Below are positions 35,079-51,609 of a stretch of 51,609 nt of DNA, one piece after another (position 1 is the first letter of the stretch; the number at the start of each line of letters is the position of its first letter). Origin of the DNA: Deltaproteobacteria bacterium (GTDB taxonomy: Bacteria > Desulfobacterota > Syntrophia > Syntrophales > Smithellaceae). The translations under genes were made by a program, and so were the position numbers. The stretch lies in the NCBI GenBank assembly GCA_012729055.1, contig JAAYDW010000030.1:1-51609 (forward strand), written 5' to 3'. The notes beneath the pieces were generated by a model. The model was not told where the DNA came from, ran no database searches, and was given only the letters and a program-made list of their open reading frames with translations.

Positions 35079-35290
35079 GAACAACCCTCGTTTCCTGATG
35101 GGCAGCTATATAACGCAGAAACCACAAAAAACTAAGAAATAATTTTTGTGCCGGTTTTGCCTGGAGAAAGCGCCCCGACGGGACGGCAGCCCGGCGGCGC
35201 GGCCGCGCCCGGAAACGATTGACTTTTTCCATACTCTGATTTAAGAGCCGGAGAAAGATTAAACAACAATGCAAAGGGGTGGTGAAGTTC

Positions 35291-36343
35291 ATGAAAAAAA
35301 GAGATTTACTGAAAAAGGCGGTCGAACATATCGATATCAAGGCCATTGACGCCGTGCCGATGATCGAGGCCATGAAGAAGATGTCCTTTTCCGCCCGCGA
35401 TCTGGCCAATGCGGCCGATATTTACGACCGGATGCTCAAGGAGAAAAAATGCGCCGTCATTCTGACGCTGGCCGGTTCCACCAGCGCCGCCGGCTGCATG
35501 CAGGTTTACGTCGATCTGGTGAAGAACAACATGGTGGACGCCATCGTTGCGACCGGCGCGTCCATCGTGGATATGGATTTTTTCGAGGCGCTGGGATTTC
35601 AGCATTACCAGGGAACGCCGTTTGTGGACGACAAGCTGCTGCGGAGTCTCTACATCGACCGGATCTACGACACGTTCATCAGCGAGGACGACCTGCAGCA
35701 CTGCGACCGCACGATCAAGAAAATCGCCGATGCGCTTGAGCCGCGTCCCTATTCCTCCCGGGAATTCATCGCTGAAATGGGAAAATACCTGACCCGGCAC
35801 GCCAAGAAGAAAAATTCGCTGGTGCAGGCGGCCTACGAAAATAACGTGCCGATTTTCTGTCCGGCCTTCTCGGACAGCTCCGCGGGCTTCGGGCTGGTGC
35901 TGCATCAGGTGGAGCATCCCGACAGCCATGTGTCCATCGACTCCGTCGCGGATTTCCGGGAGCTGACGCAAATCAAAATTTCCGCCGGCGCCTCCGGCCT
36001 CCTGATGATCGGCGGCGGCGTTCCGAAAAACTTCGCGCAGGACACGGTGGTGTGCGCGGAAATTCTGGGCCACGACGTGCCGATGCACAAATACGCCATC
36101 CAGATTACCGTGGCGGACGTCCGCGACGGCGCCTGTTCGAGCTCCACGCTCAAGGAGGCCAACTCCTGGGGCAAGGTGGATTCCTCCTGCGAGCAGATGG
36201 TGTACGCGGAGGCCACGACCGTTCTGCCGCTTCTGGCGAGCTACGCCTACCACAAGGGAAGCTGGAAGACGCGCCGGAAATGGGAGCTGGCCCGGCTCTT
36301 CGACGCGAAGCGCAAAACGCCGGTTGCCAAAAAGAAAAAGTAG
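35291..36343 (+). CDS. Deoxyhypusine synthase-like protein (probable homospermidine-type aminobutyl transferase)
   Basis: A 350-residue NAD-dependent deoxyhypusine synthase-family enzyme. It shows LTLAGSTSAAGCMQVYVDL, VATGASIVDMDF, NVPIFCPAFSDSSAGFGL and the catalytic lysine segment EANSWGKVDSS (Lys in SWGK), all family landmarks. Bacteria lack eIF5A, so bacterial members usually transfer the aminobutyl group of spermidine to putrescine (homospermidine) or another amine. The ATG at 35291 has AAGGGG about 11 nt upstream. It diverges from the kinase gene (213-nt gap with no clear promoter) and ends in two strong hairpins. Confidence 0.92.
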   Translation: MKKRDLLKKAVEHIDIKAIDAVPMIEAMKKMSFSARDLANAADIYDRMLKEKKCAVILTLAGSTSAAGCMQVYVDLVKNNMVDAIVATGASIVDMDFFEALGFQHYQGTPFVDDKLLRSLYIDRIYDTFISEDDLQHCDRTIKKIADALEPRPYSSREFIAEMGKYLTRHAKKKNSLVQAAYENNVPIFCPAFSDSSAGFGLVLHQVEHPDSHVSIDSVADFRELTQIKISAGASGLLMIGGGVPKNFAQDTVVCAEILGHDVPMHKYAIQITVADVRDGACSSSTLKEANSWGKVDSSCEQMVYAEATTVLPLLASYAYHKGSWKTRRKWELARLFDAKRKTPVAKKKK

Positions 36344-36357
36344 TCCGGATTTTTCAA

Positions 36358-36423
36358 GCGGGCCTGCAAAAGCCCGCCTTTCGCCTGAAAAAAGAAAAAA
36401 CCCGCCGGAAAGGCGGGTTTTTT
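36358..36423 (+). terminator. Tandem terminator after the deoxyhypusine synthase-like gene
   Basis: The first hairpin is GCGGGC/GCCCGC (36358-36363 and 36372-36377). The second is AAAAAACCCGCC/GGCGGGTTTTTT (36395-36406 and 36412-36423) around a GGAAA loop. The latter has A- and T-tracts on both sides, so it can act in both directions, including for a minus-strand gene formerly at 36512-36661. Confidence 0.85.
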
Positions 36424-36511
36424 GACGCTGTGGAGCGCCAGAGGAACGAGGGCTTTTCTGCAGAATGTCATTTGTCATGGACGATTCGCAGACAACCGAA
36501 TCACCCCGCTG

Positions 36512-36661
36512 TCATGCTTCGATGAAACGGTAGCTGATCTGCGTTTCGTTGGGTTTGCTTACCGCAGCACGCAGCTTCATGCCGACGGCGACCTTTTCCC
36601 GGGGAATGCCGGCGAAGGCGGGAAACCAGTGCTGTTCAAATACTTTTCTTGCAAAATGTTT
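36512..36661 (-). pseudogene. C-terminal remnant of a DUF35 (Zn-ribbon/OB-fold acyl-CoA-associated) protein
   Basis: The minus-strand frame reads EQHWFPAFAGIPREKVAVG then MKLRAAVSKPNETQISYRFIEA and stop, matching the C-terminal strand pattern of the OB-fold in DUF35 proteins. Upstream it is cut by a stop at 36662-36664, next to the AbiE promoter. The rest is missing; I looked for the N-terminal zinc ribbon beyond the AbiE genes and did not find it. DUF35 proteins usually partner thiolases, dehydratases and CoA ligases, and such genes lie just to the right. The toxin-antitoxin module probably arrived with loss of this gene's 5' part. Confidence 0.65.
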
Positions 36662-36699
36662 CTAAATATATATAATTAACACAAGTGATAATTATATAT
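36649..36699 (+). promoter_or_regulatory. AbiE promoter with overlapping 11-bp operator palindrome
   Basis: TTGCAA (36649-36654), a 16-nt spacer and TATAAT (36671-36676) form a good promoter. A perfect inverted repeat, ATATATAATTA/TAATTATATAT (36668-36678 and 36689-36699), has its left arm over the -10 box and its right arm over the start codon. AbiEi antitoxins are known to repress their own operon by binding inverted repeats, so autoregulation is likely. No Shine-Dalgarno is present and the leader would be only about 15 nt. Confidence 0.7.
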
Positions 36700-37294
36700 G
36701 CTTAGTAAGAATGTAACCAAATTGCAGGAATTGAGCAAAAAGCCGTATTTTACGCTGCGTGATGTGGCTCAGACGTTCGGCCTTCTCCAGGCCTCCGCAC
36801 GCGTATTGTGTAGCCGTTATGTCCGGCAGGGGGTGCTGATCAGGCTTAAGAACAGTTTCTACACAACCGCCTGGAAATGGGACGCTCTGACGCGCCGGGA
36901 TTTGTTTGAAATCGCCAATGTATTGCAGGTTCCTTCTTATATTTCTCTAATGACGGCCCTGGCGTATCACAATGTGACAACACAGGCGCAGAGCAATTAT
37001 CAGGAAAGCGTCTGCCTGAAACGTTCGATTGCTTATCATGTCCGGGACGCTGTTTTCAGCTACGTCAAATTGCAGAGCCGGTACTATGGCGGCTTCATCA
37101 AAATAGACGGCATATTTATCGCCGACAAAGAAAAGGCGTTTCTGGATGCGGTCTATCTTTATTCGTTCGGTAAGTATAAGTTCGATATCGAGTCGCTGGA
37201 CATGAAAAAACTGGAGTTGAAAAAAATAAAGAGTTTTGTAAAAGTTTACCCTGAGAAAACAAAAGAAACGGTGAAAAAGCTGTGCGGGATTTAA
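36698..37294 (+). CDS. abiEi: AbiEi-family antitoxin of a type IV toxin-antitoxin system
   Basis: A 198-residue protein. The N-terminal winged-helix region (YFTLRDVAQTFGL, SARVLCSRYVRQGVLIRLKNSFY) is typical of AbiEi antitoxins. The C-terminal domain includes SYISLMTALAYHNV and IADKEKAFLDAVYLYSFG, seen in the AbiEi family. The antitoxin represses the operon and counteracts AbiEii without stably binding it (type IV). Base composition is clearly more AT-rich than the flanking chromosomal genes, suggesting transfer. The start has no ribosome site and may be translated from a near-leaderless mRNA. It overlaps the toxin gene by 13 nt. Confidence 0.88.
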   Translation: MLSKNVTKLQELSKKPYFTLRDVAQTFGLLQASARVLCSRYVRQGVLIRLKNSFYTTAWKWDALTRRDLFEIANVLQVPSYISLMTALAYHNVTTQAQSNYQESVCLKRSIAYHVRDAVFSYVKLQSRYYGGFIKIDGIFIADKEKAFLDAVYLYSFGKYKFDIESLDMKKLELKKIKSFVKVYPEKTKETVKKLCGI

Positions 37295-37968
37295 TTCAAC
37301 ACGAGCAATTTGAGCTGGAAGTACTCGATCGGCTCAACAGCGGAAGATTTCTGGCCAACCTGGTTTTCGGCGGAGGCACCATGCTGCGCTTATGCCATGG
37401 ACTGGATCGCTACTCGGTTGATTTGGATTTCTGGATTATGAAAGATGTCGACTGGACCAAATATTATCGCCGACTGGAAAAATGCTTACTGCAATTTTAT
37501 GCACTTGCCGATTCCGCGAACAAGCATTTTACAATTCTATTCGAATTGAAATCGCCGCAATATCCAAGAGCGCTCAAAATAGAGATTCGCAAAGAAAAAA
37601 AGATGATCAAGACCGAAACCAGCATCGCTTACAGCCCAAACTCCAATATCCAGGTTTTACTCAATACGGTGGCGCTTCCGGATATGATGACGTCAAAGAT
37701 CGAGGCCTTCATCAACCGTAGAGAAATTCGCGATGCATACGATATTGAATTCTTATTAAAGAGAGGCATACCCCTGGCTGCTGAAAATGCACTCCTGGAT
37801 AAATTACAGGAGGGGTTGGAAAAACTCGGGAAAAAGGATTATTCCGTGAAGCTGGGTTCATTGCTCGATGCATCAGTTCGCAAATATTACATGGAAAACG
37901 GATTCCGCATCCTAAAATCGAGCCTGCGGGACAGACTTGTGGAAGCGGGGCCGAATCTTTCATCGTAG
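37282..37968 (+). CDS. abiEii: AbiEii/AbiGii-family nucleotidyltransferase toxin
   Basis: A 228-residue nucleotidyltransferase-fold protein. The N-terminal motif is LVFGGGTMLRLCHGLDRYSVDLDFWIM, containing the GG(G)T nucleotide-binding loop and the DLDF metal-binding aspartates. The later MTSKIEAFINRREIRDAYDIEFLL (K-x-R-x-(x)-D-xxD) completes the DUF1814/AbiEii signature. Such toxins transfer nucleotides to RNA or other targets and cause growth arrest or phage abortive infection. It starts with GTG inside the antitoxin gene. No truncation is seen, so the pair looks functional. Confidence 0.9.
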   Translation: MRDLIQHEQFELEVLDRLNSGRFLANLVFGGGTMLRLCHGLDRYSVDLDFWIMKDVDWTKYYRRLEKCLLQFYALADSANKHFTILFELKSPQYPRALKIEIRKEKKMIKTETSIAYSPNSNIQVLLNTVALPDMMTSKIEAFINRREIRDAYDIEFLLKRGIPLAAENALLDKLQEGLEKLGKKDYSVKLGSLLDASVRKYYMENGFRILKSSLRDRLVEAGPNLSS

Positions 37969-38131
37969 CGTATCGCATTCAAGAATAGTGAACGGTTGAT
38001 AAATGGGGGCCTTTTCCAATTAAACGAATGGTGAGAGCGATGAAGGTATCATTTCAAGCTGAATCTCCTCGGATCTTACGATGGAGAAGAAAGATGCGCA
38101 TGGCGGGAAAAGCCGGCGAAGGAGAAACTCT

Positions 38132-39007
38132 ATGAAACTGACCTCCGATTTTGTCGGCGCATCCCTCAAAGAATACACCTGCACGGTTGACGCCCGCTGG
38201 ACCATGAACTATGCGGCGGCCATAGGCGATGCCGATCCTGTCTACTTCGATGACGAGCGCCCGGAGGGGATCATCGCGCCGCCTCTGTATCCCGTGGCGC
38301 TCACCTGGCCGATTGTGGAGCACATCACGGATTATCTGCGCGCGGACGGATTTCCCCAGGAGGTGCTGTTTACCCAGGTGCATTACAGCGAGCACTTAAC
38401 CCTGCACCGGCCGGTTGCGCCCGGCATGCATCTCGCCATCAACGGCGTCATTGCCGCCATTTTGCCGCATCGGGCGGGGACGTATGTCGTGATCCGGTAC
38501 GATGCGCTGGACGACGCCGGCCGTCAGGTTTTTACCGAACACATCGGCGCCATGATGCGCGGCGTCGAATGCGCGGACGCCGGAAAAGGCGGGTCATCCC
38601 TTCCGTCCGTTCCGCTCCGGGAAAGCGAGTCCCTTTTGTGGGAATCCGTTATTCCCATTTCTCCGCTGGCCCCTTTCATCTACGACGGCTGCACGAGAAT
38701 TCATTTTCCCATCCACACCTCCGTGCAGTTTGCGCGCCGCGTGGGCCTGCCGGGGATTATCCATCAGGGGACGGCAACGCTTGCCGTGTCCGTCCAGAAC
38801 ATCCTCCGCCGAGAGGCGGGCGGCGATCCGCGCAAACTGGCTTCCGTCTACTGCCGTTTTTCCGGAATGGTGATGCCCGGATCGTCCATCCGGGTTTGCC
38901 TGACCGGCAAAAACAGAGGCGAGGGCGGGACGGATCTGTTCTTCACCGTGTCCAACGCTGAAGGAAAAAAGGCGATCAGCGACGGCTACATGCGATTAAC
39001 CGACTAA
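38132..39007 (+). CDS. MaoC/FAS1-like acyl dehydratase (hotdog fold)
   Basis: A 291-residue protein. The N-terminal half matches the FAS1-like dehydratase domain (YAAAIGDADPVYFDDERPEGIIAPPLYPVALTWP is split over residues 28-62). The C-terminal half is a second hotdog-like domain (HFPIHTSVQFARRVGLPGIIHQGTATLA). The (R)-specific enoyl-CoA hydratase signature of MaoC is DxxxxH; here the second half has IHTSVQFARRVGLPGIIHQG, so catalytic residues are not fully clear. Start at 38132 has GAAGGAG 8 nt upstream. It lies 15 nt before an acyl-CoA ligase gene, so an acyl-CoA hydration/dehydration step is inferred. The DUF35 remnant to the left fits the same setting. Confidence 0.85.
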   Translation: MKLTSDFVGASLKEYTCTVDARWTMNYAAAIGDADPVYFDDERPEGIIAPPLYPVALTWPIVEHITDYLRADGFPQEVLFTQVHYSEHLTLHRPVAPGMHLAINGVIAAILPHRAGTYVVIRYDALDDAGRQVFTEHIGAMMRGVECADAGKGGSSLPSVPLRESESLLWESVIPISPLAPFIYDGCTRIHFPIHTSVQFARRVGLPGIIHQGTATLAVSVQNILRREAGGDPRKLASVYCRFSGMVMPGSSIRVCLTGKNRGEGGTDLFFTVSNAEGKKAISDGYMRLTD

Positions 39008-39022
39008 AGGAGGAAGCGTATC

Positions 39023-40615
39023 ATGACCTGGGAAAAGCTCGATCAAACGTGGCGCTATGTGGAGAAATGGGCCAAGGCCAGGCCGGATGCGGATGCTCTG
39101 GTTTTTGGCGATGAAAAATTAACCTGGCGCGGGTTTGCCGCGCAGATGGACGCGGTGGCCCTGGCGTATCTGGAAGCCGGCATCGAAAAGGGCGACCGGA
39201 TCGCGCTTTTGTCCATGGCGCGAAACGAATTTCTGACCACCTACATGGCCGCGGGCAAGGTTGGGGCGATCTGGCTGGGACTTTCGCCGAAATACACGCA
39301 AGACGAGCTTCGCTTTCAGCTCAACGATTGCCGTCCCAAATTGCTTATCACGCTTCGCGAGTACATGGGAAGCGATCTTGCCGGGACCGTCGGCGCTCTG
39401 CAGAAGGATTGTCCGTTTTTGGAAAAAGTTCTGGTGATCGGCGAGCCTTTCGACGGCGCCGGGAGCTTTGCGGACTATGTCGCAAAACCGCGGCAGAACC
39501 TGGACGCCGCACTTGTCCGGAGAGCGTCCGAAGTCGCCGAGACGGATGACGCGCTGCTTTTGTACACGTCGGGATCGACCGGCAAGCCCAAAGGGGTGGT
39601 CCATACCCACCGCAGCATTGTGGAGAACATCAAAGTGGAAGTTGATAAATTCTTCTTCGATGAACACTCTCGGGGGCTTCTCCACTTCCCCATCAATCAT
39701 GTGGCGGCGGATGTCGAAATCGGATTCGGGGCCATCATGTCGGGCGGCTGCATTGTGTGCATGGACAAATTCGATCCGGCCCAGACCCTGAAAGTCATCG
39801 AGCAGGAAAAGATCACGCATATCGGGCAGGTGCCCGTGATGTTTTTGCTGGAGTTCAAACAGCCGGAATTCTGGACGTGCGATTTCAGCAACGTCAAAGC
39901 CTTTGTCTGGGCGGGAGCGGCCGCGCCGAAGATCATGATCGATCTGCTTTCCCCCATCTGCCGGAAGTCGGGGGCCAAACTCATCACCGGCTACGGCAGC
40001 ACGGAAGTCTGCGGCTTCATCACCTACACCGGACCGGAGGACGGCACAGAGACGCTGCTCAAGACGGTCGGAAAAATTGCCGAGCCCTTTGAACTGAAAA
40101 TTGTCGATCGGGAACGCCGGGAAGTCGCCGCCGGCGTTATCGGCGAAATTGCCGTGCGGGGTCCTTTTCTGATGAAGGGGTACTACAACAATCCCAAAGA
40201 AACGGATAAGGTTATTGACCGGGAAGGCTGGTATTACACGACGGATTTGGGCTTCAGGGACGAGGGCGGATATGTGCATATCACCGGCAGACTTTCGGAA
40301 ATGTTCAAAAGCGGCGGCGAAAATGTGTATCCGCGGGAAGTGGAGGAGGTCATCGAGACGCATGCGGCGGTGCTCTTTGCCGCTGTGATCGGAGTTCCGG
40401 ACGACATCTATCAGGAAGTCGGCTGGGCCTTTGTCATGCCGACGCCGGGGCAGAATGTCACGGAAGACGAGCTGCGCGATTTGTGCAAATCCGCACTGGC
40501 GAACTTCAAGGTGCCGAAAAAATTCTTTATCCGTCCCCTGCTGCCGCTTCTGGCGAGCGGCAAGGTGAACAAGCTGGCCCTGAAGGACGAAATCCGGGAG
40601 ATAATGAAAAAATAA
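39023..40615 (+). CDS. AMP-forming acyl-CoA synthetase (ANL superfamily)
   Basis: A 530-residue ligase with P-loop LLYTSGSTGKPKGVVHTH, ATP/adenine motif ITGYGSTEVCGF, hinge region DLGFRDEGGYVHITGRLSEMFKSGGENVYP and the C-terminal catalytic lysine in LLASGKVNKLAL. It activates a carboxylic acid to an acyl-AMP and then the CoA thioester. AAAGGAGG lies 8 nt before the ATG. Chain length cannot be told from sequence; genes of this kind beside a MaoC-like dehydratase often serve medium- or branched-chain or aromatic acids. Confidence 0.93.
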   Translation: MTWEKLDQTWRYVEKWAKARPDADALVFGDEKLTWRGFAAQMDAVALAYLEAGIEKGDRIALLSMARNEFLTTYMAAGKVGAIWLGLSPKYTQDELRFQLNDCRPKLLITLREYMGSDLAGTVGALQKDCPFLEKVLVIGEPFDGAGSFADYVAKPRQNLDAALVRRASEVAETDDALLLYTSGSTGKPKGVVHTHRSIVENIKVEVDKFFFDEHSRGLLHFPINHVAADVEIGFGAIMSGGCIVCMDKFDPAQTLKVIEQEKITHIGQVPVMFLLEFKQPEFWTCDFSNVKAFVWAGAAAPKIMIDLLSPICRKSGAKLITGYGSTEVCGFITYTGPEDGTETLLKTVGKIAEPFELKIVDRERREVAAGVIGEIAVRGPFLMKGYYNNPKETDKVIDREGWYYTTDLGFRDEGGYVHITGRLSEMFKSGGENVYPREVEEVIETHAAVLFAAVIGVPDDIYQEVGWAFVMPTPGQNVTEDELRDLCKSALANFKVPKKFFIRPLLPLLASGKVNKLALKDEIREIMKK

Positions 40616-40795
40616 GGAAATCATCGCGACAGCCGCACCGGTCATACCGGAAGCGCGCTGCAAGAAGCCGTCCGAGATCGCGGGTATGCCGGCCGCTGTC
40701 AACGCAGGTGCTGTTCAGGACGTTTAAGTAGAGCCCGGGACTGCGTTGTTTACTTCTATGTTTTTCTGCCGCCGCCGCTGATCCTGCAAGCTCCT

Positions 40796-40927
40796 TTACA
40801 CAATTCGAATCCCCGTTTTCAGAATCTCTTTGACGAAGTAATCGCTGTCGTTGAAGTCTTCCGGACGGTAGGGCATCGGGAGACAAAACATTAAAAAATC
40901 TGACGGCACGGTACGGAATGGAGAAAA
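40796..40927 (-). pseudogene. Possible C-terminal remnant of a small nucleotidyltransferase
   Basis: The minus-strand frame reads VPSDFLMFCLPMPYRPEDF then NDSDYFVKEILKTGIRIV and stop. PYRPEDF...DYF..EI..TG resembles the end of minimal nucleotidyltransferase (MNT) proteins, often partnered with HEPN toxins. The N-terminal GSxxxG catalytic part is absent, cut off at the terminator that follows the tRNA/tmRNA remnant. Tentative call. Confidence 0.35.
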
Positions 40928-40931
40928 AACA

Positions 40932-40959
40932 AAAAACCCGCCGTCGCCGGCGGGTTTTT
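40932..40959 (-). terminator. Rho-independent terminator downstream of the tRNA/tmRNA 3' remnant
   Basis: AAAAACCCGCCG/CGGCGGGTTTTT closes a 4-nt TCGC loop. Read on the minus strand it lies 31 nt after the CCA end of the RNA-gene remnant at 40991-41015, exactly where that gene's own terminator is expected. The symmetric A/T tracts mean it could also stop transcription from the acyl-CoA ligase side. Confidence 0.8.
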
Positions 40960-40990
40960 GTGTTTCTTTGGATCATGTCGGATGAGGGCT

Positions 40991-41015
40991 TGGTGGAGAT
41001 GAGGAGGATCGAACT
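40991..41015 (-). other. 25-nt 3' end of a tRNA-Ala or tmRNA gene: probable attachment-site half of an integrated island
   Basis: Read on the minus strand it gives AGTTCGATC, CTCCT, CATCTCC, ACCA: the T-loop from position 52, the 3' strand of the T stem, the acceptor strand, discriminator A73 and CCA. Position 70 is T, as needed for the G3-U70 pair of tRNA-Ala and tmRNA, which is why those two are favoured. The gene body is absent; AT-rich DNA begins directly to the right. A 3' fragment plus its own terminator on the left is what remains at the far end of an element that inserted into the gene and rebuilt it at its other end. Confidence 0.7.
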
Positions 41016-41021
41016 AATATT

Positions 41022-41060
41022 ATAACTATATATAATAATTATAATTATTAATATAGTTAT
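41022..41060. repeat. Long AT-rich near-perfect palindrome next to the attachment site
   Basis: ATAACTATAT (41022-41031) pairs with ATATAGTTAT (41051-41060), and the centre AATAATTATAATTATT is itself palindromic. It starts 7 nt from the RNA-gene remnant and ends 7 nt before a 12-nt tandem repeat. A recombination-protein site or transcript hairpin is possible. Confidence 0.8.
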
Positions 41061-41066
41061 TTTCAA

Positions 41067-41090
41067 CATACCCCCAAACATACCCCCAAA
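41067..41090. repeat. Two tandem 12-nt repeats CATACCCCCAAA
   Basis: Perfect head-to-tail copies at 41067-41078 and 41079-41090, about 50 nt inside the presumed island end. Short direct repeats at this distance from an attachment core are typical arm-type binding sites of tyrosine integrases; that role is inferred, since no integrase gene is in the window. Confidence 0.75.
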
Positions 41091-41198: not shown

Positions 41199-41250
41199 AT
41201 AATCAAACAAGTATGGAGTGCTTACATTCGAAAAAGAAAATAATAAAAAT

Positions 41251-41898
41251 ATGAAACAAGATATTCGATATAATCCGCTATATTCTCTCACTGAAGTGAG
41301 CCGCTATGCTCGCATACAGCCGGCAACTTTGCGATTATGGACGAAAAAAAATAGCATTGTTATGCTTCCAATAAACGAAGGATTGGCACCCCTGAGTTTC
41401 ATTAATCTGATAGAATCGCACGTCTTGGTTGCTTTACGGCGCACGCATCAAGTACCCATGCAGCGCATCCGTAGGGCTGTTGATTGGCTGCAAGAGCAAT
41501 ATAACACTAAGCATCCCCTTGCGGAATTGGATTTAGAGACGGATGGGCATGATGTGTTTATTCGCGAATTAGGTCTTCCAATCAATGCCTCCAAACATGG
41601 GCAAAGTGCTTTCGCGGAGATTCTTGCCCGTTATCTCAAGCGCATCGATCGTGATAAAAATAACATTCCGATCCGTTTTTACCCATTTCCATACGATGCA
41701 TCCCCTAAAACAATCGTAATGGACCCATCTGTGGCATATGGCCGGCCAGTCATTAAAGGGACCCGCATAAGCACACTCATGGTATTTGATCGTTATAGTG
41801 GCGGTGAAAGCTTGAACGATATTGCCGACGATTATGAGCTTACCATCCCTTATGTGGAGGAGGCCCTTCGGTGCGAGATCGAACGTCGGGCAGCTTAA
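41251..41898 (+). CDS. DUF433 protein with MerR-like N-terminus (putative antitoxin)
   Basis: A 215-residue protein. Residues 10-75 look like a MerR/HTH_17-type DNA-binding region (YSLTEVSRYARIQPATLRLW). The C-terminal DUF433 domain reads MDPSVAYGRPVIKGTRISTLMVFDRYSGGESLNDIADDYELT, the classic PVIxGTRI pattern. DUF433 proteins are commonly antitoxins of PIN-like toxins. The start at 41251 lacks a strong ribosome site; a GTG at 41218 would add 11 residues but sits at the predicted transcript start. It overlaps the next gene by 28 nt, as expected for a toxin-antitoxin pair. The DNA-binding part suggests autoregulation. Confidence 0.85.
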   Translation: MKQDIRYNPLYSLTEVSRYARIQPATLRLWTKKNSIVMLPINEGLAPLSFINLIESHVLVALRRTHQVPMQRIRRAVDWLQEQYNTKHPLAELDLETDGHDVFIRELGLPINASKHGQSAFAEILARYLKRIDRDKNNIPIRFYPFPYDASPKTIVMDPSVAYGRPVIKGTRISTLMVFDRYSGGESLNDIADDYELTIPYVEEALRCEIERRAA

Positions 41899-42275
41899 CA
41901 CTTCTACTTGATGAAAATTTGTCTGGCCGTCGCATCATTGAAGGATTAACTGCTTATGGTATCCCAGTAAAACCCCAAACTGATATCATGAAACGTGGAA
42001 TAACAGATGAGGAAGTATTGGCTGTTCTTTCTCGTTATCCAGATTATTATCTACTGACTAAAGACAGCGATTTTCACAAAAAACCTATGGTTAAGACAGC
42101 GCTTATCCATCATGGTATTGGAGCTTTCGTGATTACTGCACACAAAGGTAAGACCGCGAACGAACTTGTCAGTCTAATGAATAATGCATGGCACCGTGTT
42201 ATGCGATTTGCCGAAAAACATAATCGTCCATTCGTGGCCAAAATTTTAGCGAATGGTCATGTGGACGAGGCATAA
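41871..42275 (+). CDS. DUF5615-type PIN-like protein (putative toxin ribonuclease)
   Basis: A 134-residue PIN-like protein. It has LLLDENLSGRRIIEGL (first acidic residues), TDIMKRGITDEEVLAVL and YLLTKDSDFHKKP (later acidic cluster), the arrangement of the PIN_8/DUF5615 group that pairs with DUF433 antitoxins. Conserved aspartates and glutamate suggest metal-dependent RNA cleavage. GTG start within the DUF433 gene. Growth inhibition by this protein is inferred from family and context only. Confidence 0.82.
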   Translation: MRDRTSGSLTLLLDENLSGRRIIEGLTAYGIPVKPQTDIMKRGITDEEVLAVLSRYPDYYLLTKDSDFHKKPMVKTALIHHGIGAFVITAHKGKTANELVSLMNNAWHRVMRFAEKHNRPFVAKILANGHVDEA

Positions 42276-43083: not shown

Positions 43084-44634
43084 ATGAATCATAATGGTAA
43101 TAATATAGAATCACAGCTCTGGGCAGCCGCGGATGAACTGCGGGCCAATTCAAAACTAAAATCCTCGGAATACTCCGTTCCAGTGTTGGGACTGGTCTTC
43201 CTGCGTTACGCTGATCATAAGTTTCAGACTGCCGCAAAAAAATTAGAGGGCTCGGGTGGCGGAAGGCGTAGGATAGGACCTTCGGACTATCAGGCTAAAG
43301 GTGTGCTGTATCTGCCCGAGGCGGCACGTTTCTCGGCGTTGATCCAATTATCCGAAGGGGCCAATATCGGCGCGGCCATCAATGATGCCATGCGCTCCAT
43401 CGAAGCGGAGAATCCCGACCTCAAGGACGTACTACCCAAGACCTACAACCGCTTTGAGAACTCCCTGCTTAAAGAACTGCTCAAAACCATGAACTCCGTC
43501 CCCATGGACATCGAGGGGGATGCTTTCGGGAAAATTTATGAATACTTCCTAGGCCATTTCGCCATGAGCGAGGGACAAAAGGGCGGCGAGTTCTTTACCC
43601 CCACAGCAATCGTCCAACTCATTGTCGGTATTATCGAACCATTCCATGGTCGCATCTTCGACCCTGCCTGCGGTTCCGGCGGTATGTTTGTGCAAAGCGC
43701 CAGGTTTGTCGAGGAGCGTAAGAAGAGCCCAGGGGCCGAGCTCAGCATTTATGGGCAAGAGCGCGTTTCTGAGACCGTTAGGCTCAACAAGATGAACTTA
43801 GCCGTGCATGGCCTGGCCGGTGACATCCGCCAGGGCAACGCTTATTATGAAGACCTGCATAAATCAACCGACAAATTCGATTTTGTTATGGCCAATCCTC
43901 CCTTCAACGTGGACAGGGTGGACAAGGACAGGCTCAAGGATGATCCGCGTTTTCCCTTCGGCCTGCCCCGCGCCGACAACGCCAACTACCTCTGGATTCA
44001 GCTTTTCTACAGCTCACTAAATGAAACAGGCCGGGCCGGATTTGTCATGGCCAACTCCGCCTCCGACGCTCGTGGTTCGGAACTGGACATCCGCAAGCAG
44101 ATCATAGAAGCCCGCGCCGTGGATGTGATGGTGGCCGTCGGCCCCAACTTCTTCTATACTGTAACCCTGCCGTGCACCCTCTGGTTCTTCGACCGGGGCA
44201 AGCGCAAGACCGCCCGCGCCGACCAGGTACTATTCATTGATGCCCGTCACATCTATCGCCAAATTGACCGCGCCCACCGTGACTGGACCCCGGCACAGAT
44301 CGAATTTCTTGCTAATATCGCACGGCTTTATCGAGGCGAAGCACCGGAGAACCTGCACGAAAGTTACGAATTGATGGCCCAGCATTTCCCCGAAAGCAAA
44401 TACACTGATGTGGCGGGACTGTGCAAAGTAACGACTATCGTGGAGATCGAATCCCAGGGTTGGAGCCTCAACCCCGGTCGCTATGTGGGTGTTACCGTTC
44501 GTGTCGAGGACGACTTCGACTTTAAGGTGAGGCTGGAGGAGCAGAACGAGGAACTAGAAGTGCTAAACGCGGAGGCCCGGGAACTGGAAGAACGGATTGC
44601 GGAGAATGTGGTCAAATTGCTGGAGGGGGAGTAA
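43084..44634 (+). CDS. hsdM: Type I restriction-modification DNA methyltransferase subunit M
   Basis: A 516-residue N6-adenine methyltransferase. An N-terminal helical HsdM_N region ([21 protein letters not shown]) comes first. The SAM-binding motif I is [17 protein letters not shown], the catalytic motif [13 protein letters not shown], and the C-terminal coiled coil [24 protein letters not shown] binds HsdS. Two M subunits with one S form the modifying core that protects host sites. GGAG lies 6 nt before the ATG. The stop and the hsdS start overlap (TAATG). First gene of a four-gene coupled operon. Confidence 0.97.
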
Positions 44635-45908
44635 TGGCCAGATATGTCAAATGGCCGACGAAGCGACTTTGTGAGCTGGCAGAATTCCGCAACGGCGTTA
44701 ATTACAACAAGAGCAGCTTCGGTGTGGGGGTGAAAGTTGTTGGCGTTTCTGACTTTCAGGACTACACAAGGCCAAGGTATGCCGAACTTGCGCAGATAAA
44801 TCCCGATGGCATTGTCACGGATCGCAATATCCTTCGCAATGGCGACATTGTTTTCGTTCGATCGAACGGGAACCGTGAACTCATTGGCCGGAGCCTCTTT
44901 ATTGAGAATCCCCCGGAAGAAATTACACATTCCGCATTTACAATTCGTTTACGTTTTTCTAGTGGTATAGTATTTCCGAAGTTTTATGCTTACTGCTTCA
45001 GAACACCTGTGATTCGTCAGGCGCTGACAGCTTATGGTGGTGGCACAAACATATCAAACCTGAATCAGGATATTCTCAACGCATTGGAAGTTCCATTTCC
45101 ACCTCTGCCCACTCAGCAGAAAATCGCCGCTATTCTCTCGGTCTACGACGACCTGATCGAGAATAACCTGCGGCGGATCAAGATTCTGGAGGAGATGTCG
45201 CAGAACCTCTACCGCGAGTGGTTCGTCAAGTTCCGCTTTCCGGGACATGAAAAGGCCCGCTTTGTCGATTCCCCCCTCGGCAAGATTCCGGAGGGGTGGG
45301 AGGTAACAACGATCAATGCTGTTACTTCATATATTAACCGAGGGGTTACTCCGAAGTATGATGACTCGTCAACAAGTCTTGTGATTAACCAAAAATGCAT
45401 CAGAGACCACAAGTTAAATCTAATTTATGCGCGACCACACAGAAGCAGTGTTGTCAATGCAAAGTATGTTCAATTCGGTGATGTTTTAATTAATTCCACT
45501 GGCGTCGGTACGCTTGGCCGAGTAACACAAGTCTACGAGGTATTGAGAGAAACAACGGTTGATACACACGTATCAATCGTGCGTCCTGCTTGTGCCGATG
45601 ATATTGATTATTTTGGATTAACTATGATTGACATGGAGTCTCATTTTGAGTCCCTTGGAGCTGGCGCTACTGGACAAACTGAGCTTCGCAGGGATCGTAT
45701 AGGCGAGACGGAGATAATCCTACCACCTTCTGAGCTGCGAAAACAATTTTCTGAGCATGTTACGTCATGCCGGAAAATGATCTTGAATTTATTAAAGCGA
45801 AACGTAAACCTCCGCCTTACACGCGATCTGCTTTTACCCAAACTTGTTTCCGGCGAAGTGGATGTGTCGGAGTTGGGCATCAATATCCCTGAGGAGAACA
45901 AAGCATGA
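44634..45908 (+). CDS. hsdS: Type I restriction-modification specificity subunit S
   Basis: A 424-residue specificity subunit with two target recognition domains (about residues 1-150 and 215-370). They are separated by the central conserved helix PLPTQQKIAAILSVYDDLIENNLRRIKILEEMSQNLYREWF (split over residues 158-198). A second conserved helix follows at the C-terminus (RKQFSEHVTSCRKMIL, LTRDLLLPKLVSGEVDV). Each recognition domain reads one half of the bipartite target. Both domains look intact; the recognised sequence cannot be predicted. Overlaps the neighbours at both ends (TAATG, ATGA). Confidence 0.95.
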   Translation: MARYVKWPTKRLCELAEFRNGVNYNKSSFGVGVKVVGVSDFQDYTRPRYAELAQINPDGIVTDRNILRNGDIVFVRSNGNRELIGRSLFIENPPEEITHSAFTIRLRFSSGIVFPKFYAYCFRTPVIRQALTAYGGGTNISNLNQDILNALEVPFPPLPTQQKIAAILSVYDDLIENNLRRIKILEEMSQNLYREWFVKFRFPGHEKARFVDSPLGKIPEGWEVTTINAVTSYINRGVTPKYDDSSTSLVINQKCIRDHKLNLIYARPHRSSVVNAKYVQFGDVLINSTGVGTLGRVTQVYEVLRETTVDTHVSIVRPACADDIDYFGLTMIDMESHFESLGAGATGQTELRRDRIGETEIILPPSELRKQFSEHVTSCRKMILNLLKRNVNLRLTRDLLLPKLVSGEVDVSELGINIPEENKA

Positions 45909-48019
45909 AAGCTACCGAGGCCAAGTTTTTGGATTTTATCAAAAAATCACCGCAATTTGTCATACCTATCTACCAGCGTACTTATTCATGGACGGAGAGG
46001 GAGTGTCGGCAACTTTGGGATGATATTTTGCGCACGGGTAACAACGATAATGTTTCCGCCCATTTTGTTGGCTCCATCGTGTATATAGAGAAGGGACTGT
46101 ATCATGTGACCAGTCAGTCGCCTCTTTTAGTCATCGATGGCCAACAACGTCTGACCACGATGGCGCTTCTGATTGCCGCAGTAGCCAAGACACTGGAGCA
46201 ATTATCCGAAGACAACAGGGAGCCAGTAGACGGTTTCTCACCACGTAAACTTCGTAATTACTACCTTATTAACCCGGAAGAAGAAGGAGAGCGGCATTAC
46301 AAACTCATCCTATCTCAGACCGACCGCGACTCGCTCATCGCCGTTGTCGCAGGAAAAGAGTTGCCTAAAGAGTATTCCCGGCGCGTTGCTGAGAACTATG
46401 AATTCTTCAAGGCCTGGATTGAATGTCGTAAAGGCGACCTGACTGCACTATGCAAAGGTATCGCTAAACTGATTGTGGTGGACATCTCACTGAACCGAGA
46501 CCAAGACAATCCGCAGTTGATCTTTGAGAGCATGAACTCCACAGGTCGAGAGCTGACCCAGGCCGACTTAATTCGTAACTTTATTCTGATGGGACTTGAA
46601 CCGGAACTGCAAACCAGTCTCTATGAGAACTACTGGCGACCTATGGAACTGGATTTTGGGCAAGAGGCTTACGGCACTCACTTCGACAGCTTTATGCGCC
46701 ATTATTTAACGGTTAAGACCGGTGATATTCCAAGATTGGACGAAGTGTACGATGCCTTCAAGGCTCACGCCCGTTCCTCTAAAGTGGCGGGATCAGGCGT
46801 GGAATCATTAGTGGCCGATATTCGAGCCTTTTCTCGCTATTTTTGCACCATGGCGTTGGGAGCGGAATCTGATCACGAGCTGAAGTTCGCCTTCCATGAC
46901 CTTCGCGAGTTGAAGGTGGACGTAGCCTATCCTTTCTTGTTGGAACTTTATCATGATTATGCTGGAGAAATGTTATCAAAGCAGGATTTTGCGGCGGCAG
47001 TGCGATTGATTGAAGCTTATGTCTTCCGACGAGCCATTTGCAATATCCCTACTAACTCGTTAAACAAGACCTTTGCGACTTTCACAAAAGCTCTAAAAAA
47101 AGATCGCTATCTGGAAAGCATTCAAGCCCACTTGCTCCTGCTGCCCTCGTATCGACGTTTCCCTAATGATGAGGAGTTCAAGCGTGAGTTTCAAATACGA
47201 GATCTTTACAATTTTAGGAGCCGTAGCTACTGGCTGAGGCGCATGGAAAACTACGGACGCAAGGAGCGCGTGGAGGTTGCCGAATACACCATCGAGCATA
47301 TACTGCCACAGAACGAGAACCTGTCCAAAGGATGGAAGGAAGCTCTGGGACTGGAGTGGGAGCGTATCCGCAAAACTTGGCTCCATACCCTCGGCAACCT
47401 GACTCTGACCGGTTATAACTCGGAGTATAGTGACCGGGCTTTTGTCGAGAAACGCGATATGCCCGGAGGCTTTAAGGAAAGTCCTCTCAGGCTGAATCAA
47501 GGTCTTGGTAGTCTTGAACAGTGGAATGAAGAAACGATCAAAGCTCGCGCCCAACGCTTGAGCGAAGCGGCAGTAACCGTCTGGTGTTCTCCCCAACTGT
47601 CCACCGATGTGTTAACTGCCTATAAACCTAGCAAGGAATCTACCACAGGTTATTCACTAGAAGATCATCCGCACCTTCTCAGTGGTGTGGGCCGAGAATT
47701 ATTCGAGGCATTTCGCAAGGAAGTGTTGGCACTTGATCCCGTAGTCAGCGAAGAGTTTCTCAAACTATATGTGGCCTTCAAGGCCGAGACTAACTTTGTC
47801 GATGTGGTGCCGCAGGCCAAGCGGCTACGTCTTTCGCTGAATATGTCTTTTGCTGATATTAACGACCCCCGCAGTATGTGCAAAGACGTTACCGGCGTTG
47901 GTCGCTGGGGCAACGGTGATGTTGAGGTGGGCTTCACATCGCTGGAAGAGCTACCATATATTATGGGGCTGGTCCGCCAGTCCTTCGAGCGGCAAATGGG
48001 TAACGGTGGTGAACAATGA
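45905..48019 (+). CDS. DUF262/DUF1524 (GmrSD-like) nuclease embedded in the type I operon
   Basis: A 704-residue protein with three parts. The N-terminal DUF262 ParB-like domain has VIPIYQRTYSWTERE, VIDGQQRLTTMALL and IFESMNSTGRELTQADLIRNF. The DUF1524 HNH nuclease domain has YTIEHILPQNENLSKGW and TLGNLTLTGYNSEYSDRAF. The C-terminal DUF5655-like region has FKAETNFVDVVPQAKRLRL and TGVGRWGNGDVEVGF. GmrSD and BrxU of this architecture are NTP-dependent nucleases that cut modified phage DNA. All key motifs are intact. Four-nucleotide ATGA overlaps with hsdS and hsdR mean all four are translated together, so a joint defence role is likely. Confidence 0.9.
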   Translation: MKATEAKFLDFIKKSPQFVIPIYQRTYSWTERECRQLWDDILRTGNNDNVSAHFVGSIVYIEKGLYHVTSQSPLLVIDGQQRLTTMALLIAAVAKTLEQLSEDNREPVDGFSPRKLRNYYLINPEEEGERHYKLILSQTDRDSLIAVVAGKELPKEYSRRVAENYEFFKAWIECRKGDLTALCKGIAKLIVVDISLNRDQDNPQLIFESMNSTGRELTQADLIRNFILMGLEPELQTSLYENYWRPMELDFGQEAYGTHFDSFMRHYLTVKTGDIPRLDEVYDAFKAHARSSKVAGSGVESLVADIRAFSRYFCTMALGAESDHELKFAFHDLRELKVDVAYPFLLELYHDYAGEMLSKQDFAAAVRLIEAYVFRRAICNIPTNSLNKTFATFTKALKKDRYLESIQAHLLLLPSYRRFPNDEEFKREFQIRDLYNFRSRSYWLRRMENYGRKERVEVAEYTIEHILPQNENLSKGWKEALGLEWERIRKTWLHTLGNLTLTGYNSEYSDRAFVEKRDMPGGFKESPLRLNQGLGSLEQWNEETIKARAQRLSEAAVTVWCSPQLSTDVLTAYKPSKESTTGYSLEDHPHLLSGVGRELFEAFRKEVLALDPVVSEEFLKLYVAFKAETNFVDVVPQAKRLRLSLNMSFADINDPRSMCKDVTGVGRWGNGDVEVGFTSLEELPYIMGLVRQSFERQMGNGGEQ

Positions 48020-51000
48020 CCCCCAAAGGCTACACCGAAGACGCCCTTGTGGAACAACCGGCCATTACCTTGCTGGCGGAATTGGGCTGGGAGACTTTCA
48101 ACGCCTATAGTGAGTTCGATAATGGTGTGAGCCCTCTTGGCCGGGAAACCAAGGCCGAGGTGGTGCTGAAAACCCGCCTGCGTGAAGTATTGCTGCGGAT
48201 TAACACGGATGTATCCGTCGATTCCATCCATCAGGCCATTGAAGAACTAACCCGCGACCGTTCCCGCATGAGCCCGACCTCCGCCAACCGCGAGATCTAC
48301 CATCTACTCAAAAACGGTGTGCGCATTCCAGTACCCGAGCCCGAAGGCGACGGGGAAACCATTGAATTGGTAAGAGTGATTGACTGGGACGAACCAGCCA
48401 ACAACAACTTTCTGCTTTGCTCTCAGTTTTGGATTACAGGTGAGATGCACACACGCCGCGCCGACCTGATTGGCTTCGTTAATGGTTTACCTCTACTGTT
48501 CATCGAACTGAAAGCCGCCCATCGACGCCTGGAGACCGCCTTCACCGGCAACCTGCGCGACTATAAAGACACGGTGCCGCACCTTTTCTGGCCCAATGCC
48601 CTGATCATCCTTTCCAATGGAAGCCAGAGCCGCGTGGGCAGTGTTACCGCTGGGTGGGAGCACTTTGCCGAGTGGAAGAAGATAGGCAGTGAAGACGAAA
48701 AAGGCCGGGTGTCCCTGGAAATCATGTTACGAGGTATCTGTGATCCGGCACGGCTGTTGGACCTGGTGGAGAACTTCTGTCTATATCAGGAAGTCCCCGG
48801 TGGGCTGATCAAGCTCACGGCCAAGAATCATCAGTACCTTGGAGTCAATAACGCGCTCGTGGCTCTGGCTGACATCCGGCAGCGAGACGGCAGGCTGGGC
48901 GTTTTCTGGCATACCCAGGGCAGCGGCAAGAGTGTTTCCATGATTTTCTTCGCACAGAAGGTTTTGCGTAAACTGCCTGGCAACTGGACTTTTGTAATTG
49001 TTACCGACCGGCAGGAATTGGATGGACAGATATACAAGAACTTCGCCTCGGCGGGAGTTGTTACCGAAGGACGTGCCCAGGCAGAAAGCAGTAAGCACCT
49101 GCGGCAGTTGCTTTCCGAGGATCACCGTTACATATTCACCTTGATCCATAAGTTCCGGATACCGGAGGAGGTATCCACCCGTAGCGACATAATCGTTATC
49201 ACCGATGAAGCACACCGCAGCCAGTACGATACTTTGGCGTTGAATATGCGAACTGCTCTCCCCAATGCCTCTTTTCTGGCCTTTACCGGCACCCCCCTGA
49301 TTGTGGGCGAGGAAAAGACTCGGCAGGTCTTTGGTGATTACATCAGCGTTTATGACTTTCATCAATCAGTAGACGACGGCTCGACGGTCCGGCTCTACTA
49401 TGAGAACCGCATCCCGGAGCTGCAACTGGTTAATGAGAACCTCAATGAGGACATGGAAAGGTTATTGGAAGAAGCGGAACTGGACGAGACACAGGAGAAG
49501 AAGCTGGAGCGGGAGTTTGGCCGCGAATACCACCTGATTACTCGCGAGGATCGTCTGGAGGCAGTGGCCAAAGATGTGGTAGCACATTTTACCGGACGCG
49601 GTTTTCAGGGCAAGGCGATGATGATCTGCATCGACAAGGCCACAGCTGTCCGTATGTATGACAAGGTAAAGAAGCACTGGCGAGAGAAAATCATTGCCTT
49701 ACAGGCGGAATGGAACGGTGCGGAAGACGACGCCCGGAAGGAGATAGAAAAGCGCATTGCCCTAATGAGAGAAACTGATATGGCCGTTGTTGTCTCCCAG
49801 GGGCAAAATGAAATTGCCGAAATGAAAGATAAGGGACTGGACATCCGCCCACATCGTAAACGCATGGTCGACGAAGACCTGGAAACAAAATTCAAGAATC
49901 CGGACGACCCCTTCCGGTTAGTGTTTGTCTGCGCCATGTGGATGACTGGCTTTGATGTTCCTAGTTGTTCGACCCTCTACCTCGACAAACCGATGCGCAA
50001 TCATACTTTGATGCAAACCATTGCCCGGTGCAATCGGGTCTATCCCGGCAAGGTGAGCGGCCTGATCGTGGATTATGCCGGGGTATTCCGTAATCTGGAG
50101 AAGGCACTGGCTATTTACGGTGCTGGTCGAGGCGGCGATAAGCCAGTGGAAGATAAGGCCGCGCTGGTGGCGGCGCTGCGGCAGGCCCTGGAAGAAACAA
50201 AAAGTCTGTGTCAGGAACGAGGCGTAAACCTTACTGCTATTCAGACTGCGGAAGGATTTGCCCGTGTCGGTCTGCTAGATGATGCCGTGGAGGCACTGGT
50301 GGGGACGGAGGAGATCAAGCTCCGCTATCTTGATCTGGCCAATACAGTACAGCGCCTCTATAAGGCCGTGCTTCCCGACCCGGCAGCACGGGAATTTGCT
50401 GTTGAGGTGATACCCGTACAGGTTATCGCTGATAAAATCCGTGCACTGATCCCACCGGCGGACATCTCATTAGTCATGCAGCAGGTTGAAGGATTGCTCG
50501 ACCGTTCTATTGCCACGGAAGGATATGTTATCCGAGAATTAAGCCCACCTTTTGGCGATGAGCATTGGATAGACCTGAGCAATGTTGACTTTGAGAAACT
50601 CGCCGAGAAATTCAAGATAAGCCGAAAACGTACGATCAACGAGAAACTAAAGGGTCAGGTGGCACAGAAACTCATGACGATGGTGCGACTCAACCGCACG
50701 CGCATGGATTATCTGGAACGCTTCCAGGCGATGATCGACGCCTATAATGCTGGCAGCCTCAACGCCGAGGAGTTCTTCCAGCAATTGGTGGATTTTGCTC
50801 AAAGTCTGAATGCGGAAGAAAAGCGGGCAATGGGCGAAAAATTAGATGAAGAAGAACTGGCACTCTTTGATCTGTTGACCAAGCCGCAGATTGAGATGAG
50901 CAAGTCGGATAGAGAAAAGGTGAAGGCAACGGCAAGACAGTTATTGACCACGCTCAAAGCGGAGAAGCTGGTACTTGATTGGCGAAAGCGTCAGCAGGCT

Positions 51001-51156
51001 CGTGCCGAGGTCCGTGTCACCATCGAAAAAGTGCTGGACCATGGTTTGCCAAGGATCTATACGCCGGAACTGTTCGAGCAAAAAACAACGGCTGTATTCC
51101 AGCACGTATATGACGCTTATTATGGCGCTGGGAGCAGTGCATATGCTACGGCATAA
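48016..51156 (+). CDS. hsdR: Type I restriction endonuclease subunit R
   Basis: A 1046-residue restriction and translocation subunit. The N-terminal PD-(D/E)xK nuclease has ADLIGFVNGLPLLFIELKA. The SF2 motor follows with Walker A WHTQGSGKSVSMIF, DEAH box VITDEAHRSQYD, SAT-like AFTGTPL, and motifs V/VI VCAMWMTGFDVPSCSTLY and QTIARCNRVYPGK. A helical C-terminal region contacts the methylase core. It cuts unmodified DNA after ATP-driven translocation. The gene is complete and overlaps the DUF262 gene (ATGA). Placing R last after S with an extra gene between is an uncommon order. Confidence 0.97.
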   Translation: MTPKGYTEDALVEQPAITLLAELGWETFNAYSEFDNGVSPLGRETKAEVVLKTRLREVLLRINTDVSVDSIHQAIEELTRDRSRMSPTSANREIYHLLKNGVRIPVPEPEGDGETIELVRVIDWDEPANNNFLLCSQFWITGEMHTRRADLIGFVNGLPLLFIELKAAHRRLETAFTGNLRDYKDTVPHLFWPNALIILSNGSQSRVGSVTAGWEHFAEWKKIGSEDEKGRVSLEIMLRGICDPARLLDLVENFCLYQEVPGGLIKLTAKNHQYLGVNNALVALADIRQRDGRLGVFWHTQGSGKSVSMIFFAQKVLRKLPGNWTFVIVTDRQELDGQIYKNFASAGVVTEGRAQAESSKHLRQLLSEDHRYIFTLIHKFRIPEEVSTRSDIIVITDEAHRSQYDTLALNMRTALPNASFLAFTGTPLIVGEEKTRQVFGDYISVYDFHQSVDDGSTVRLYYENRIPELQLVNENLNEDMERLLEEAELDETQEKKLEREFGREYHLITREDRLEAVAKDVVAHFTGRGFQGKAMMICIDKATAVRMYDKVKKHWREKIIALQAEWNGAEDDARKEIEKRIALMRETDMAVVVSQGQNEIAEMKDKGLDIRPHRKRMVDEDLETKFKNPDDPFRLVFVCAMWMTGFDVPSCSTLYLDKPMRNHTLMQTIARCNRVYPGKVSGLIVDYAGVFRNLEKALAIYGAGRGGDKPVEDKAALVAALRQALEETKSLCQERGVNLTAIQTAEGFARVGLLDDAVEALVGTEEIKLRYLDLANTVQRLYKAVLPDPAAREFAVEVIPVQVIADKIRALIPPADISLVMQQVEGLLDRSIATEGYVIRELSPPFGDEHWIDLSNVDFEKLAEKFKISRKRTINEKLKGQVAQKLMTMVRLNRTRMDYLERFQAMIDAYNAGSLNAEEFFQQLVDFAQSLNAEEKRAMGEKLDEEELALFDLLTKPQIEMSKSDREKVKATARQLLTTLKAEKLVLDWRKRQQARAEVRVTIEKVLDHGLPRIYTPELFEQKTTAVFQHVYDAYYGAGSSAYATA

Positions 51157-51585: not shown

Positions 51586-51609
51586 CATGAGGAAAGATAA
51601 CGTAACAGC
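51586..51609 (+). CDS. Start of a gene cut by the window edge, perhaps a second transposase
   Basis: ATG at 51586 with AAAGGA about 9 nt upstream, reading MRKDNVTA before the window ends. GGTGGTGTATCC (51521-51532) and GGATACACACACC (51573-51585) form an imperfect inverted repeat in front of it. The abrupt end of the IS256 transposase at about 51496 suggests that an insertion element begins here and that this is its transposase, but eight codons cannot prove it. Confidence 0.35.

Follow-up and report, generated by a model that had tools for sequence, protein, structure and literature searches.

A body-less tRNA-Ala(CGC) 3' end as the probable integrase-distal junction of a genomic island in a Smithellaceae genome

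Results

The DNA analysed here (the window) is the entire contig C112, 51,609 nucleotides long, of the 113-contig genome G000, position 51609 being the contig end. On its minus strand, at 41014-40991, stands a 24-nt tRNA 3' end, GTTCGATCCTCCTCATCTCCACCA. A search allowing up to 3 mismatches found it at this single place in the window, and 100 dinucleotide shuffles gave no occurrence. ARAGORN detected no tRNA or tmRNA anywhere in the window, and Rfam at the gathering threshold detected no RNA family there; the fragment is thus a scar without a gene body. The features of the locus are as follows.

35279-36343, plus strand: deoxyhypusine-synthase-like gene, native flank of the tRNA-Ala(CGC) site by synteny with relatives
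36698-40615, plus strand: genes for AbiEi, AbiEii, a MaoC dehydratase and an acyl-CoA ligase, between the scar and the native flank
40928-40986, minus strand: chromosome-side flank of the scar, resembling the stretch behind the tRNA on contig C108 and in many relatives; contains the terminator
40932-40959, no strand given: intrinsic terminator, perfect inverted repeat (arms 40932-40943 and 40948-40959)
40987-41015, minus strand: scar, the probable attR core; 29 nt equal to the tRNA-Ala(CGC) 3' end plus 4 nt past CCA, C108:32291-32319
41022-41060, no strand given: near-perfect AT-rich palindrome between the core and the arm repeats
41067-41078, minus strand: putative arm-type repeat 1, reading TTTGGGGGTATG on this strand
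41079-41090, minus strand: putative arm-type repeat 2, likewise reading TTTGGGGGTATG, at a distance of 12 bp from repeat 1
41218-41898, plus strand: DUF433 / HTH_66 protein, presumed antitoxin-like partner of the next gene
41871-42275, plus strand: DUF5615 / PIN_10 protein, presumed toxin-like
43084-44634, plus strand: type I methyltransferase HsdM, island cargo
44634-45908, plus strand: type I specificity subunit HsdS, island cargo
45905-48019, plus strand: GmrSD-type restriction protein with DUF5655, island cargo
48016-51156, plus strand: type I restriction subunit HsdR, island cargo
51253-51495, minus strand: Mutator-family transposase fragment near the contig end

A first-pass annotation made from the letters of the window had described most of this arrangement, namely a body-less RNA-gene 3' end on the minus strand with its own terminator on the left and, on the right, a long palindrome, two CATACCCCCAAA repeats and defence genes. 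All of these elements are present. The terminator is a 12-bp perfect inverted repeat that closes in a T run, and the defence genes are those of the type I system (HsdM, HsdS, HsdR) and the GmrSD-type protein. The fragment had been given as 25 nt, whereas its identity with the intact gene actually covers 29 nt (41015-40987), four of them beyond CCA. The two CATACCCCCAAA repeats are the sole ATACCCCC words on either strand of the window, and they begin 77 and 65 nt ahead of the tRNA part.

The self-complementarity score of the palindrome was 34, compared with a mean of 19.9 and a maximum of 31 in 500 shuffles. We rejected the palindrome as a conserved part of the site, as it is strong in the window only: among 10 other far ends subjected to the same test, only that of G061 C37 was nominally unusual (P 0.04). 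What recurs at other far ends is the AT-richness. In GC content the window falls into parts, with 0.52-0.57 in roughly the first 14 kb, mostly 0.58-0.63 between there and 36 kb, and around 0.49 over the AbiE genes and a large share of the island. The idea that the contig ends where it does owing to a transposase repeated in the assembly was not supported, the last 430 bases being single-copy in the assembled genome.

When the 24-nt core was searched for in the whole genome (up to 2 mismatches), three places were found: the window, C108:32292-32315 (0 mismatches) and C9 (1 mismatch). The C108 copy belongs to an intact tRNA-Ala(CGC) at C108:32240-32315, and the C9 copy to tRNA-Ala(GGC); a 51-nt pattern of tRNA-Ala(CGC) (up to 3 mismatches) had one place in G000. 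The exact identity between the window (minus strand, 41015-40987) and C108:32291-32319 is 29 nt long, so that the tRNA 3' end is directly repeated at what are read as the two ends of the island. The similarity extends past this core through the terminator (89 aligned columns, 81%). The initial annotation had left the source as tRNA-Ala or tmRNA. The results decide for tRNA-Ala and rule out tmRNA, since the identical intact gene is tRNA-Ala(CGC) and the tmRNA 3' ends of relatives differ. No further core copy was found near the deoxyhypusine-synthase-like gene in the 24-nt search (up to 2 mismatches in the genome, up to 3 in the window), and a shorter-motif search of 36301-41000 gave no match.

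The second copy that the annotation had predicted, lying in an intact gene with an adjacent tyrosine integrase, was therefore found in the same genome, at C108:32240-32315. At this end of the island an integrase directly adjoins the intact tRNA: 3' of the tRNA come a 146-aa protein with Arm-DNA-bind_3 alone and then a 407-aa integrase that combines Arm-DNA-bind_3, Phage_int_M and Phage_integrase in one protein and is of the P4-like group. The arm domains of both proteins match the solved chains 3ju0 and 3jtz/3rmp. A search at E ≤ 1e-60 gave no other integrase of this kind in G000. The arm domain of the C108 integrase clusters with those of G004, G005 and G008, all of the ATACCCCC class (support 84 in a quick tree), and has its top identity, 80%, with that of G088, which likewise has two proteins. 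The repeats on the C108 side are of the ATACCCG type, unlike the ATACCCCC of the window. As regards a phage satellite or prophage, C108 yielded only a primase-polymerase and a terminase large subunit, both encoded further along; a terminase small subunit at L005:18182-18757 was dropped as a candidate, having weak PHROGs matches only.

The DNA 5' of the C108 tRNA aligned 5' of the tRNA at 18 of 23 places in relatives, and the nearest genes upstream are PilT/PilU-type ATPases (judged by eye). In G014 and G016, which belong to the same genus, a deoxyhypusine-synthase-like gene is convergent with the tRNA and lies within about 150 bp downstream of it; the same arrangement is seen, from the alignment only, in G021 of the same family. 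The product of the corresponding gene in the window (35279-36343) is, by NCBIfam equivalog, 1,9-bis(guanidino)-5-aza-nonane synthase. Because the tRNA faces this gene in three relatives, C108 and the window can be read as lying on the two sides of one insertion site. The synteny assigns the left side of the window to the C108 tRNA as its native flank, with an interruption in G000. The site is empty in G014, G016 and G021, and the loci read in these island-free relatives lack a second fragment. The annotation had placed the RNA gene and the integrase beyond the right edge of the window, which the synteny supports; in the assembly the contig ends at 51609 and C108 is a separate contig.

Elsewhere in the genus the distance from the tRNA to the flanking gene is about 1.3 kb (G007), 2.7 kb (G006) or 20 kb with the other orientation (G010), and in the remaining genomes the two are on separate contigs or one of them was not found. 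The gap of about 1.3 kb in G007 C32 (L044:9211-10477) holds short repeats and, by eye, a small transposase-like gene. G012 has two intact tRNA-Ala(CGC) genes (C16:17229-17279 and C71:7499-7549), each followed by an island-type att module. In the 20 genus genomes there are 19 exact core places, and 18 of these have the tRNA body (by eye), the window copy being the exception.

Between the scar and the native flanking gene there are 4.6 kb, so that the scar is not a clean border between chromosome and island. The window genes at 36698-40615 break the gene order that G014, G016 and G021 have between the deoxyhypusine-synthase-like gene and tRNA-Ala(CGC). Close relatives of the acyl-CoA ligase occur in G008, G003, G005, G013 and G011, on contigs other than that of the tRNA, and the segment may be an older insertion. 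The left flank of the scar itself is closest to the stretches behind the tRNA copies in G011 and G019, two genomes with no match to the C108 integrase (E ≤ 1e-60). This flank is possibly a relic of the att module of an older island; the flank in the island-free G016 is also somewhat similar.

Relatives of the C108 integrase were found in 47 of the 155 genomes of the order (61 places; E ≤ 1e-60). For the trees we used 43 of the 61 places plus G372, giving 44 rows, of which 39 are single-protein. Where the targets could be read among these 44 integrases (for several no target was identified), they were the 3' ends of tRNA-Ala, tmRNA, tRNA-Arg, tRNA-Cys, tRNA-Leu and tRNA-Ser. A terminator-bearing module stands behind the target in most of them, and single-protein islands usually have three copies of a short repeat immediately 5' of the integrase gene (both by eye). 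The repeats fall into the classes ATACCCCC, GGTACC, TACACCC and GCCCCC, plus rarer ones.

A second core with a repeat pair was found on the same contig for 7 of the 24 integrases with downstream DNA read (G061 C37, G009 C45, G053 C43, G151 C55, G056 C11, G101 C219 and G067 C198; the 12-nt core of G053 C43 is no better than chance, E 0.26, and its call rests on the adjacent repeats), and for 17 none was found on the DNA read. Both ends thus lie on one contig in relatives such as G061 C37; in G000 the presumed ends are on C108 and C112. Additional scars were seen in G061 C5, G067 C4 and G011 C125. The far ends have a common layout, in which an AT-rich spacer (69-94% AT) separates the core from a pair of repeats; these start 60-87 nt before the core, with some 12 bp (11-14 as printed) from one to the other. 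That of G061 C5 has a single repeat. The window repeats match this layout. The repeat classes of the near and far ends agree, at least partly, in 5 of the 7 islands (partially in G053, G151 and G101). In G009 and G056, both of the GGTACC class, the ends differ, the far repeats being GGGGGC/GGGGGT-like. Since GGGGGC-like far repeats also occur in these two GGTACC islands, agreement within the GGGGGC class says little.

Several of these loci have features of their own. G053 C43 (L152) is an island of this integrase group with a seemingly non-RNA target. G051 C106 has a downstream repeat pair for which no second core was found, and it was excluded from the count of islands with both ends. In G009 C45 (L150-L151), a further, almost identical att module stands directly behind a tRNA-Arg scar, an arrangement suggestive of tandem islands. 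In G011 C125 (L042:300-1400), an intact tRNA-Ala(CGC) and the decayed scar, which carries similar repeats, are about 0.9 kb apart; the DNA between them holds a HicA/HicB-like pair (by eye) and is perhaps a shrunken island remnant kept by the toxin-antitoxin pair. The far end in the window likewise opens with a toxin-antitoxin-like pair.

The repeat pair was also used as a probe in 10 genomes. The probe, TTGSGGGTANNNTTGSGGGTA, was searched with up to 2 mismatches and accepted either G or C at the position where the ATACCCCC and ATACCCG types differ. It had 9 places, and a reversed control pattern had 5, which were counted without inspection. Seven of the 9 probe places lie 75-90 nt (from the first base of the probe) before a body-less RNA-gene 3' fragment, three of these scars (G000, G061 and G011) having been known before the search. 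The seven are G000 C112, G061 C37 (28 nt shared with the intact gene), G011 C125 (decayed), G054 C27, G054 C137 (17 nt of tRNA-Cys), G055 C45 (30 nt) and G372 C89 (14 nt of tmRNA). At the other two places, G054 C23 and G086 C54, no RNA-gene 3' fragment was found. At G054 C27:15300-15320 (L286), a perfect repeat pair precedes a tRNA-like 3' fragment whose source tRNA was not identified, and G054 has no ATACCCCC-class integrase at E ≤ 1e-60.

We then compared the repeat class and the RNA target with trees of different parts of the integrase. The repeat class was assigned by automatic word count in 33 of the 39 single-protein islands, six without a clear class being omitted. On the tree of residues 1-110 there were 4 changes of repeat class, compared with a mean of 16.8 and a minimum of 13 in 500 shuffles; in the quick form of this tree, 3 of 41 branches were starred as strongly supported. 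The trees of residues 101-200 and of residues 201 to the end (the catalytic part) gave 14 and 15 changes (shuffled minimum 12 and 13, respectively). RNA target labels were set by hand from ARAGORN output and visible RNA ends in 31 of the 44 rows. The target required 8 changes on the catalytic tree (200 shuffles, mean 15.5, minimum 12) and 14 on the N-terminal tree (shuffled mean 15.4, minimum 12). By these counts the repeat class goes with the arm domain and the target with the catalytic domain. Since the repeat class covaries with the N-terminal arm domain, the best reading of the CATACCCCCAAA pair is that of putative arm sites of the integrase. On these sequence comparisons, the results indicate that target choice would go with the catalytic part and arm-site choice with the N-terminal domain, the two being shuffled independently.

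The 146-aa arm-only protein was found in 7 of the 155 genomes of the order (E ≤ 1e-35), including G000, and also in G372 outside the order; among 395 genomes sampled across the phylum, near full-length short-frame matches were seen in G000 and G372 only. The integrase follows the arm-only gene in G000, G086, G088, G148 and G372, and in G055, G054 and G035 the contig stops within the integrase or shortly after its start. The arm-only loci L191 (G086) and L193 (G054), from fen metagenome bins assigned to different families, are identical over the stretch printed, perhaps because a single sequence was placed in two bins. The last ~40 residues of the protein are conserved in four sequences; the last 36 matched no PHROGs family, and Pfam matched the arm domain only. 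In viral contigs, 302 pattern matches to the protein yielded no confirmed case. A single-sequence structure model of the L191 relative had a mean pLDDT of 35.9 and was of no use.

The repeats before the arm-only gene are of the ATACCCG type in G000, G055, G086/G054, G088 and, in degenerate form, G148, TTGCCCC in G372 and ATACCCCC in G035. The five two-protein integrases in the tree fall into one group of 15 rows, the other members of which are all of the ATACCCCC class (support 87). Far ends of two-protein islands were found in G000 (the window), G055 C45 and G372 C89, the latter two as tmRNA fragments; none was identified in G086, G088, G148, G054 or G035. At the far end, G000 has two GGGGGTA repeats, G055 has GGGGGTA and TGGGGTA, and G372 has GGGGGTT and GGGGGTA. 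The near and far repeats therefore differ in all three two-protein islands with a far end found, the case of G372 being biased, since the probe is able to find far ends of the ATACCCG type (G000, G055) and not of the TTGCCCC type (G372). It is also possible that another tmRNA-targeting integrase is behind the G372 C89 scar.

Discussion

The scar in the window is very probably the integrase-distal junction (attR) of a genomic island inserted in the 3' end of tRNA-Ala(CGC). That it is the far-end scar of an integrase-mediated insertion had been proposed by the annotation and is supported by the 29-nt identity, the tRNA and integrase on C108, and the synteny with relatives. The island would start on C108 behind the restored tRNA, with the arm-domain protein, the P4-like tyrosine integrase, the primase-polymerase and the terminase, and would end in the window with the toxin-antitoxin-like pair and the restriction system. 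The catalytic part of the integrase would cross over within the 29-nt core common to the tRNA gene and the island. Such a crossover would rebuild the tRNA beside the integrase and leave a 3' copy at the far end, which is the outcome seen on the two contigs. The N-terminal domain, judging from the covariation, would bind the CATACCCCCAAA arm sites and bring attL and attR together.

Several observations speak against this reading: C108 and C112 are separate contigs, their repeats differ, a 4.6-kb segment lies beside the scar, 17 of 24 integrases had no second core with a repeat pair on the DNA read, the repeat classes of the two ends disagree in 2 of the 7 islands with both ends on one contig and agree only partially in three more, the G053 core is no better than chance, and the scar flank resembles G011 and G019. 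The scar could instead mark where an older island, now without its integrase, came to its far end, the C108 element being a younger, separate insertion in the same tRNA. The ATACCCG repeats on C108 as opposed to ATACCCCC in the window would fit such tandem insertions, as would the example of G009 C45, where a scar is directly followed by another att-like module, and the segment left of the scar, which has no counterpart in the gene order that G014, G016 and G021 show here. However, the assembled genome has no third core copy (up to 2 mismatches) besides that in tRNA-Ala(GGC), an unassembled copy being possible, and no second integrase of this kind (E ≤ 1e-60). Unlike repeats at the two ends are also found in two other two-protein islands (G055 and G372), and the arm domain of the C108 integrase groups with integrases of the repeat class of the window. 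We thus consider tandem insertions unlikely. It is far less probable still that no integrase was involved and that the scar is a decayed tRNA pseudogene or a deletion remnant: a body-less fragment beside a terminator does look like a truncated tRNA gene, but the 29-nt identity starts within the T-arm, the repeats stand at a conserved spacing, and the same layout recurs at other RNA-gene targets.

The integrase-distal junction of one island, as we prefer to read the scar, is an ordinary boundary of a known kind. Lambda Int binds, through its N-terminal domain, arm sites away from the crossover core, and we know of no separate arm-only protein in the lambda system. The islands studied here resemble lambda in having an N-terminal domain and putative arm sites distant from the core, a likeness of layout. 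The arm-type and core-type sites of lambda Int are outlined in the part of PMC2951348 drawn on here, the main subject of which is the KplE1 prophage, with IntS in argW. In the KplE1 account, as far as that part goes, attL, which holds arm and core sites, and the promoter of the integrase gene overlap, and IntS acts at the tRNA-integrase region as a repressor of its gene (PMC2951348). The island in G000 is similarly inserted in a tRNA and has core and putative arm-type sites between the tRNA and the integrase gene; the attL/promoter overlap and the autorepression by IntS provide a precedent for the near-end layout. KplE1 differs in its host (E. coli) and in having the directionality factor TorI, and the sections of the account used here (PMC2951348) mention no stand-alone arm-domain protein. 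DUF4102 is described, in the section of PMC8138268 consulted, as the N-terminal arm domain of the IntSXT group of integrases. The C108 integrase shares the Arm-DNA-bind_3, central and catalytic domains with P4-like/IntSXT integrases, which serve islands, ICEs and phages (PMC8138268). Unlike these, C108 encodes a further arm-domain protein, of 146 aa, ahead of the integrase, and the two ends have unlike repeats. We have not found a two-protein module with unlike end repeats described; our literature search, in which subscription journals were thinly covered, gave no report of class-wise covariation of the repeats or of a stand-alone arm-domain protein.

As the ends differ in 3 of 3 two-protein islands and agree, at least partly, in 5 of 7 single-protein islands, recognition of the arm sites may be split, the arm-only protein binding the repeats on the integrase side and the arm domain of the integrase those at the far end. 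We put this forward tentatively, as a possible reading of the sequences, and its odds are slightly reduced by the probe bias in the G372 far end.

With the twin repeats, the far ends of islands can be found despite a short or decayed RNA fragment, and independent shuffling of the arm and catalytic domains would allow integrase domain swaps to be predicted and tested. Another means of controlling the direction of integration may lie in the stand-alone arm-domain protein, which is a candidate for this role. If split recognition is true, it would provide a built-in switch between integration and excision, or would regulate the integrase gene, with no need of a classical excisionase.
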